The notes below the pieces were generated by a model that was given only the letters and a program-made list of their open reading frames with translations, had not been told where the DNA came from and did not search any database. Below are positions 20,407 to 21,274 of a stretch of DNA of 33,476 nucleotides, piece by piece; within the stretch, counting starts at the first letter, position 1; the number at the start of each line of letters is the position of its first letter. This DNA is from Ignavibacteriales bacterium (lineage in GTDB: Bacteria; Bacteroidota; Ignavibacteria; UBA10030): positions 1 to 33,476 of the forward strand of contig JACPLA010000044.1 of NCBI GenBank assembly GCA_016186715.1, read 5' to 3'. A program made the translations under genes and the position numbers.

Positions 20407-20724
20407 TGGGGCACCAATTCCACCTCAGCCTGTGTCCGTAGAAACGACGACAATGGAACCCAGCTCGAAATGGAAGAAGGCCCTGCGCGGACGATGGAAC
20501 ACCGCCAGGCAACGACATTCGTTGATGTGAACTTCCAGAGCGACCCGGGATTTGCGCAGACACGCCGCTCCAGCGGTCGTGTTTCTCACACGCAAGACTT
20601 CCGGTGATACCTGTTGTGATTGTGAGAGAATGAATCATGGTTGAACCCGTTTTTTGCCTTCCCGGCAGGCCAACGGAGAGGCCTCACGTCCGTTGAAACC
20701 GATCATGAACGTCGGAAACAAAAA
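20407..20724 (-). other. Long 5' region of rng, no confident gene
   Basis: This 318-nt stretch lies between the SRP RNA and rng. It contains the possible short ORF at 20425-20595 and a 7-bp hairpin with arms at 20671-20677 and 20689-20695. No promoter is clear. Given that RNase E of E. coli controls its own mRNA through a long structured leader, a similar role here is possible but unproven. Confidence 0.4.
20425..20595 (-). CDS. Possible short leader ORF upstream of rng
   Basis: A 56-codon open frame begins at a TTG at 20595 (or a GTG at 20589) and ends 18 nt before the rng start. Its middle reads RKSRVALEVHINECRC, then LAVFHRPRRAFFHFELGSIVV. Codon choice looks acceptable, but there is no ATG, the ribosome site is weak and I do not recognise the product. 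Its stop codon touches a GAGGTGG that could serve rng. It may be coding, a regulatory leader peptide, or chance. Confidence 0.22.
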   Translation of the reverse strand: MRVRNTTAGAACLRKSRVALEVHINECRCLAVFHRPRRAFFHFELGSIVVVSTDTG

Positions 20725-20826
20725 GAGGTCAAGCTACCCTGCGTCACACAATAGCGATTGCCGACCGTTGCTTCCTTCCGGACCTGGCGGGGTTGAGCAC
20801 CGTCTTGTTGCACAGGACTTGACCTC
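20725..20826 (-). ncRNA. ffs: Signal recognition particle RNA, small bacterial type
   Basis: The minus-strand RNA has the universally conserved SRP domain IV motif CCAGGTCCGGAAGGAAGCA (within 20765-20787), including the GGAA tetraloop and the Ffh-binding internal loops. The 5' end GAGGTCAAG pairs with the 3' end CTTGACCTC to form a perfect 9-bp closing helix, giving an RNA of about 102 nt, close to E. coli 4.5S RNA (114 nt). A TTTTTG tract follows the closing helix, which may serve in transcription termination. There is no Alu domain, as expected for the small form. Confidence 0.95.
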
Positions 20827-20934: not shown

Positions 20935-21200
20935 CCCCACAAGCCGTGCTCGTGGGGCTGATCGGAATCTCCGCCAAAGGCGCCAGCCCGCTTCCATTAT
21001 GCATCAGGGGAAGCTGGCGGGGATGAGCCTTCGGCTCAGAACTCCTCTACGTTATCGTGGAGCTGATCGGGATCTCCGCCACCGGCGGATGAGCATTTGC
21101 CTCAGAACCGACCAACCTTGTGGAGCTGAGGAGGATCTCCGCCTCAAGAGCGATACGGGAAGGCGGATGAGCCTTTGGCTCAGAACTCCATCATGCCAAC
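20935..21200 (-). repeat. Three degenerate repeats carrying tRNA-Ala 3' ends
   Basis: Downstream of tRNA-Ala on the minus strand the last 18 nt of the tRNA plus one base (GATCCCGATCAGCTCCAC, 21218-21201) recur three times: at 21137-21120 (15 of 18 identical), 21074-21057 (18 of 18) and 20969-20952 (16 of 18). Each copy is preceded by GGCGGA, which pairs with an upstream TCCGCC. Before that lies a TGAGCC(G/A)AAGGCTCA hairpin, intact in the first and third units and degraded in the second, and GTTCTGAG. Unit lengths are about 81, 63 and 105 nt. The last copy is followed by GTGGGG, which pairs with CCCCAC at its 3' end (20935-20957). The layout resembles the tyrT tail repeats of E. coli. Confidence 0.85.
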
Positions 21201-21201
21201 G

Positions 21202-21274
21202 TGGAGCTGATCGGGATCGAACCGACGACCTCTTCGTTGCGAACGAAGCGCTCTCCCAGCTGAGCTACAGCCCC
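21202..21274 (-). tRNA. tRNA-Ala, anticodon CGC
   Basis: The 73-nt minus-strand gene folds into a full cloverleaf: acceptor GGGGCTG with CAGCTCC, D-stem GCTC/GAGC, anticodon stem CTTCG/CGAAG around TTCGCAA (anticodon CGC, reading GCG), a 5-nt variable loop and a T-arm GTCGG-TTCGATC-CCGAT. The G3:U70 wobble pair, the identity element for alanyl-tRNA synthetase, is present, and the discriminator is A. CCA is not encoded; CG follows instead, so the 3' end needs nucleotidyltransferase. The gene is divergent from mazG and is followed by the tRNA-tail repeats. Confidence 0.96.

Follow-up and report, generated by a model that had tools for sequence, protein, structure and literature searches.

The tail behind the tRNA-Ala(CGC) gene of the window, i.e., the whole 33,476-nucleotide stretch of DNA that was analysed, is probably composed of three ORF-less copies, either non-autonomous or decayed, of a small tRNA-parasitic mobile element of the GIY-YIG homing type, a reading reached by sequence comparison to which we assign a probability of roughly 0.6. 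The tail looks like what is left of a mobile element that has attracted little notice, since the same layout recurs at many tRNA genes, in several phyla and often together with a GIY-YIG gene. The features of the locus are collected in Table 1.

Table 1. Features of the tRNA-Ala(CGC) tail and its downstream neighbourhood (positions in the window)
Feature	Position	Strand	Basis
tRNA-Ala(CGC), intact	21201..21274	-	ARAGORN; Rfam RF00005 65.5 bits
Unit 1: 5' T-stem strand + TTC (TGGAGTTC)	21183..21190	-	sequence
Unit 1: double hairpin	21138..21182	-	sequence; covariance model R1 60.8 bits
Unit 1: copy of tRNA-Ala 3' end (GATCCTCCTCAGCTCCAC)	21120..21137	-	15/18 vs own tRNA
Unit 2: variable loop/T-stem copy + TTC (AAGGTTGGTCGGTTC)	21105..21119	-	sequence
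Unit 2: double hairpin TGAGGCAAATGCTCA TCCGCCGGTGGCGGA, 30 nt	21075..21104	-	R1 66.0 bits
Unit 2: copy of tRNA-Ala 3' end, 18/18	21057..21074	-	sequence match
Unit 3: 5' T-stem strand + TTC (AGGAGTTC)	21039..21046	-	sequence
Unit 3: hairpins 1 + 2	20970..21038	-	R1 28.7 bits
Unit 3: copy of tRNA-Ala 3' end, 16/18	20952..20969	-	sequence match
Terminal inverted repeat CCCCAC..GTGGGG beyond last unit	20935..20957	-	predicted stem
Small SRP RNA gene	20724..20824	-	Rfam RF00169 65.1 bits

The last 18 nt of tRNA-Ala (GATCCCGATCAGCTCCAC) recur three times downstream on the same strand, and the coordinates and match scores given for these copies in the initial annotation were reproduced. The best other match to this 18-nt end in the rest of the 33-kb window is 14/18, and dinucleotide shuffles of the 500 nt downstream of the tRNA (n = 200) likewise reached 14/18 at best, with a mean of 11.2. 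The pair of hairpins reported ahead of each copy is present in all three units, the first hairpin of unit 2 being weaker (TGAGGC/TGCTCA, 4 bp) and its second perfect. Each unit runs in the order T-stem strand, TTC, hairpin 1, hairpin 2 and then the copied 3' end. Hairpin 1 of unit 1 is TGAGCCAAAGGCTCA (21182-21168, stem TGAGCC/GGCTCA) and hairpin 2 is TCCGCC-18 nt-GGCGGA (21167-21138) with a loop of 18 nt; the T-stem of this unit forms four of its five pairs with CTCCT of the unit itself, and its 3'-end copy is identical (18/18) to the end of a tRNA-Ala(CGC) allele found in a relative (G015, L384). The corresponding hairpins of unit 3 are TGAGCCGAAGGCTCA (21038-21024) and TCC..GGCGGA, the loop of the latter holding a nested palindrome, CCGCCAGC..GCTGGCG (about 21020-20981). 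This nested palindrome occurs at three further sites of the genome (C141, C74 and C120; L002, L003 and L004), giving palindromes within palindromes.

The tRNA copy extends upstream of the hairpins (AAGGTTGGTCGGTTC in unit 2 vs AAGAGGTCGTCGGTTC in the tRNA), therefore the hairpins lie within a copy of the T-loop and not merely ahead of the 3' end. The two 15-nt hairpins form a 30-nt insert between T-loop positions C56 and R57, longer where the loops are enlarged; a unit is thus the T-arm and 3' end of tRNA-Ala, split at one constant point by a hairpin pair. An Rfam search of the window returned the tRNA and the SRP RNA only, with no group I intron core in the units. No GIY-YIG gene is found in the window's units, whereas one is present in counterparts with identical hairpins. 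The predicted inverted repeat beyond the last unit is possibly the transcript end, although it carries no T-run.

Self-copying tails behind other tRNA genes, for which the initial annotation had suggested a search, were found elsewhere in the same genome, where we read the tails at 30 tRNA loci and in chosen stretches. The tail of tRNA-Thr(CGT) contains a unit with its own 3' end (18/18), and that of tRNA-Arg(CCT) a unit with its own 3' end (18/18) plus 20 identical nucleotides ahead of the T-loop. Variant units follow tRNA-Arg(CCG) and tRNA-Leu(TAG), the latter copying a 3' end that is not its own, and a tRNA-Gln copy has its T-loop interrupted. Uninterrupted copies lie behind tRNA-Trp (14/18) and tRNA-Val(CAC), the second resembling a Val 3' half without being exactly its own. 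In two genera (G000 and G006; L011 and L104) a unit accompanies the Thr(CGT) gene that lies close to an atpD-like gene, each unit matching the tRNA allele of its own genome, which may reflect either independent insertion or concerted change. A partial tRNA-Gly copy behind tRNA-Tyr (G000:C52, about 2100-2140; L015) holds a single hairpin, TCCGCCTCTGGCGGA, in its D-loop. The genome also contains a group I intron (Rfam 81 bits; G000:C141:28215-28487, L307:816-1088), followed by a tRNA-Asn 3' half and, farther on, a GIY-YIG ORF; its tRNA list includes no intact tRNA-Asn. Neither of the GIY-YIG genes inspected in this genome (C141, C3) lies beside a T-loop unit, and we saw no local source of the nuclease.

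To follow the units beyond this genome we used a covariance model, R1, built from five sequences, two of which had long loops that were shortened. Units were detected in 36 of 61 genomes (this one and 60 relatives), with 0 to 75 per genome. A tRNA gene is present within 400 nt for 53 of 90 distinct units; all 53 are on the strand of the tRNA and 46 are downstream of it. The 17 nt after the hairpins match the neighbouring tRNA at a median of 16/17 positions, and in 64% this match beats 99% of other tRNAs. An exact-pattern scan yielded 78 stretches in named genomes (about one expected by our own estimate), mostly in metagenome-assembled genomes (MAGs) of Ignavibacteria/Bacteroidota but also in Patescibacteria, Omnitrophota, Kiritimatiellota/Lentisphaerae/Verrucomicrobia (PVC) and Saganbacteria; a few of the 78 (e.g., Paractinoplanes, Chthonomonadales) look like chance matches. 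The scan pattern included GTTC and excluded the copied 3' end, so the constancy of GTTC among these matches is by construction. A search of a phage collection returned ordinary tRNA matches only, and no exact unit was found in viral contigs. We found no description of the bacterial units in the open-access literature, which is weak evidence, open access being only part of the literature. Two further arrays came to light, namely a long tandem array of period 140 with the hairpin pair beside tRNA-Val and tRNA-Gly, read on the opposite strand (L167, G032:C9), and tandem near-complete tRNA-Ala copies lacking the 5' acceptor strand behind tRNA-Ala (L393, G008:C4).

In several arrays an ORF of about 89-90 codons with a Pfam GIY-YIG domain (E about 1e-14) fills the space from the tRNA to the hairpins, as at L131, L133, L188 and L173. 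The ORF begins right after the restored tRNA 3' end, and its stop codon is the TGA of hairpin 1. A count that started from GIY-YIG genes irrespective of hairpins placed 27 of 70 within 300 nt of a tRNA gene, 27/27 on the same strand, compared with 0/28 control stretches (p = 3e-5). Most of these tRNA-linked genes have a partial copy of the same tRNA across the ORF, a 3' part where the copy follows the ORF and a 5' part where it precedes it, the 5' type being found at L291, L293 and L317. Over the 61 genomes, unit counts correlate with GIY-YIG counts (rho 0.63; about 0.48 allowing for Y1 transposases and genome size). Against reading the units as homing elements, 43 of the 70 GIY-YIG genes have no tRNA nearby, many units have no ORF, and genome G057 has four units and one GIY-YIG match.

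The tRNA-Ala(CGC) gene is located upstream of the small SRP RNA gene in the window and in relatives (same order at L378, L379, L381-L383, L385 and L386), and this conserved neighbourhood defines an orthologous site. Units beside tRNA-Ala are retained in some relatives and absent from others, one of the points on which the initial annotation had made its proposal depend: a copy of the gene's own 3' end lies within 500 nt in 8 of the 29 tRNA-Ala genes read, the window included. Within one genus, G025 has a clean 90-bp insertion directly after tRNA-Ala that G009 lacks, with both flanks aligning; the insertion is a partial tRNA-Ala copy whose T-loop is uninterrupted and whose anticodon arm holds a hairpin. 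Three species of another genus differ at the same gene, one having a decayed unit, another a single unit and the third three units in tandem. At tRNA-Pro(GGG), behind similar upstream DNA, G033 has a hairpin unit and G038 a GIY-YIG ORF with an uninterrupted copy. Presence and absence were also seen at tRNA-Arg(TCT), without a clean empty site because attC-like repeats follow that tRNA. Such high-copy repeats, with GTTAGGC-like cores, lie behind tRNA-Arg(TCT) at L111 and in many places in G028 and G026.

The initial annotation had read the paired stems as a sign of selection on RNA structure. The stems do covary, both being more than 99% paired over the 90 distinct units in an alignment that was itself fitted to the model. 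Where the stems change, C-G and G-C pairs are swapped and single-sided intermediates are absent; wobble pairs occupy 6 of about 1,078 cells (about 0.6%) in the hairpins vs about 31 of 425 (about 7%) in the copied T-stem. Paired swaps without intermediates and few wobble pairs suggest that the hairpins are maintained or exchanged as DNA palindromes, and the covariation looks like the product of such maintenance. The full tail folds 1.5 s.d. below shuffles (z -1.5), which is not unusually stable; with this and the scarcity of G-U pairs, we do not favour selection on RNA structure as the main driver, and that part of the earlier proposal is weakly supported.

The hairpin pair also occurs away from tRNA genes. 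In the genome of the window it lies inside a non-tRNA palindrome, GGCGTCGGAT..ATCCGATGCC, and in one instance it borders a Y1 (IS200-type) transposase gene (C9:19212-19559) on both sides (G000:C9:19076-20012; L254:1365-2300). That locus has a REP/RAYT-like layout, and an empty version of the palindrome, GGCGTCGGATTCATCCGATGCC, lies nearby between hairpin-bearing ones. The pair was further found at GTTCAAGTTCAAG repeats. As it is present outside tRNAs, the hairpin pair may be an independent loop-seeking element. Hairpin pairs were also seen off tRNAs at GTTCAA-type short repeats resembling the T-loop box (L171, L182, L189, L191, L192, L202, L227 and L248).

We propose that the full element comprises the restored tRNA 3' end, a GIY-YIG ORF of about 90 codons, a T-stem copy with GTTC, two 15-nt hairpins and the displaced 3'-end copy. 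A SegB-like GIY-YIG nuclease would cut the tRNA gene at GTTC^RAWTC, the conserved box of the T-loop, and in the repair of the cut a section of the tRNA would be duplicated around the insert. One copy would restore a working tRNA, while the other would be left displaced, its loop presumably filled by the hairpins. Repeated rounds, or recombination between copies, could then produce a tandem array, and the ORF-less units of the window may derive from ORF-bearing ones.

Several other explanations have to be weighed against the GIY-YIG homing element. The main rival holds that the units combine two independent things, partial tRNA duplications made by tRNA-targeting elements and a separate double-hairpin element that enters any hairpin loop, be it the T-, D- or anticodon loop of a dead copy or another palindrome. 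Uninterrupted T-loop copies exist (Trp and Val in the genome of the window, L290, L295 and G025), therefore duplication and hairpin insertion are separable, and hairpins are found in D-loop and anticodon-loop copies (L289, C52) as well as in the non-tRNA palindrome that has an empty version nearby. However, the T-loop units hardly differ between phyla and provide the stop codon of the nuclease ORF, which suggests that the hairpins belong to the element, and we regard two separate origins as unlikely. The copies might instead be a functional tRNA tail, its RNA retained as a processing decoy, a stabiliser or a released small RNA, like the rtT RNA of the E. coli tyrT locus invoked in the initial annotation. 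That analogy holds for the layout and for nothing beyond it. The same-strand, mostly downstream position of the units, their paired stems and the Thr(CGT) units of two genera, each true to its own allele, would fit such a role, but 21 of 29 orthologous tRNA-Ala genes have no copy, occurrence between genomes is sporadic, and neither the near-absence of G-U pairs nor the ordinary stability of the whole tail is what it would lead one to expect; we consider it improbable.

Scars of integration or duplication fit best among the three roles suggested earlier, in a form that points to GIY-YIG homing and not to a classical phage integrase. Attachment-site scars of integrase-type islands or prophages at tRNA 3' ends would account for the regenerated 3' ends and for a synteny break after one tRNA-Arg; they are very hard to reconcile with 55-110 bp tandem repeats bearing a constant two-hairpin insert, or with copies of the 5' type, and no integrase gene was noticed in the segments that were read. 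We give equally little credence to REP-like elements moved by IS200/IS605-type (Y1, RAYT) transposases and inserted 3' of the tetranucleotide GTTC. The Y1 gene flanked by hairpin pairs, insertion at GTTC without target duplication and a weak correlation of counts speak for them, but G033 has 20 units and no Y1 gene, G048 has 11 Y1 genes and no units, the partial correlation falls to 0.16 (no association) once GIY-YIG counts are allowed for, and the tRNA copies are left unexplained. A Y1/RAYT origin was our first idea of a mobile element and was dropped on these counts and partial correlations.

If the GIY-YIG reading is correct, a small nuclease element targets a sequence common to nearly all tRNAs and repairs the tRNA that it strikes. 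In Ignavibacteria and Patescibacteria this would explain the origin of many stray fragments of tRNAs, of GIY-YIG genes linked to tRNAs and of palindromic repeats. It is tempting to speculate, at slightly less than even odds, that these are a previously undescribed class of minimal mobile elements of several phyla, GIY-YIG-bearing when autonomous and two-hairpin when not. Such elements would spread via tRNA genes, cutting the universal T-loop box and using a duplicated end to rebuild the tRNA of the host, with the hairpin pair serving as terminus or as a block to re-cutting.

Bacterial mobile DNA commonly inserts at transfer RNA genes, which is usually credited to integrases. In the E. coli tyrT tail, source of rtT RNA, the 3' end of the tRNA recurs within tandem repeats that follow the gene, at a single locus. 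The window resembles it in having repeats with the tRNA 3' end directly downstream on the same strand, but we know of no T-loop hairpin pair in the tyrT tail. REP/RAYT and other short IS200/IS605-derived elements consist of short palindromes with a tetranucleotide foot, mobilized by a transposase in trans; the units share the palindromes and the foot but do not track the presence of Y1 genes. Group I introns in tRNAs with GIY-YIG genes, one of which occurs in the genome of the window, are similar in that GIY-YIG genes exploit tRNA genes, whereas the units contain no intron and the tRNA would be restored by duplication and not by splicing. The mitochondrial double-hairpin elements of Allomyces and sponges, which are short, GC-rich paired hairpins of sporadic occurrence and suspected mobility, with no flanking duplication reported in Allomyces, are a formal analogue that differs in residing in organelles and in having no tie to self-copied tRNA ends (PMC2800124).

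The closest likeness is to SegB of phage T6 and the related free-standing GIY-YIG homing endonucleases of T-even phages, with a nuclease beside tRNA genes, a T-loop-box motif and tandem repeats of tRNA segments (PMC13096335). SegB cleaves within tRNA genes with the preferred motif RAWTSGAAC, tandem amplification of a tRNA segment requires its activity, and segB is linked to tRNA genes in phages (PMC13096335). The units are split at the reverse complement of its motif, GTTCSAWTY, which is the T-loop box (SegB cleavage: PMC13096335). The SegB system belongs to phage genomes, and the account, in the parts read, describes no two-hairpin insert or self-copied 3' end (PMC13096335); the units described here reside in bacterial chromosomes, where they form ORF-less arrays or come with an ORF of about 90 codons, and cutting at the T-loop box is published for SegB only. 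If our reading is correct, it would link the tRNA amplification seen with SegB in phages to bacterial chromosomes.
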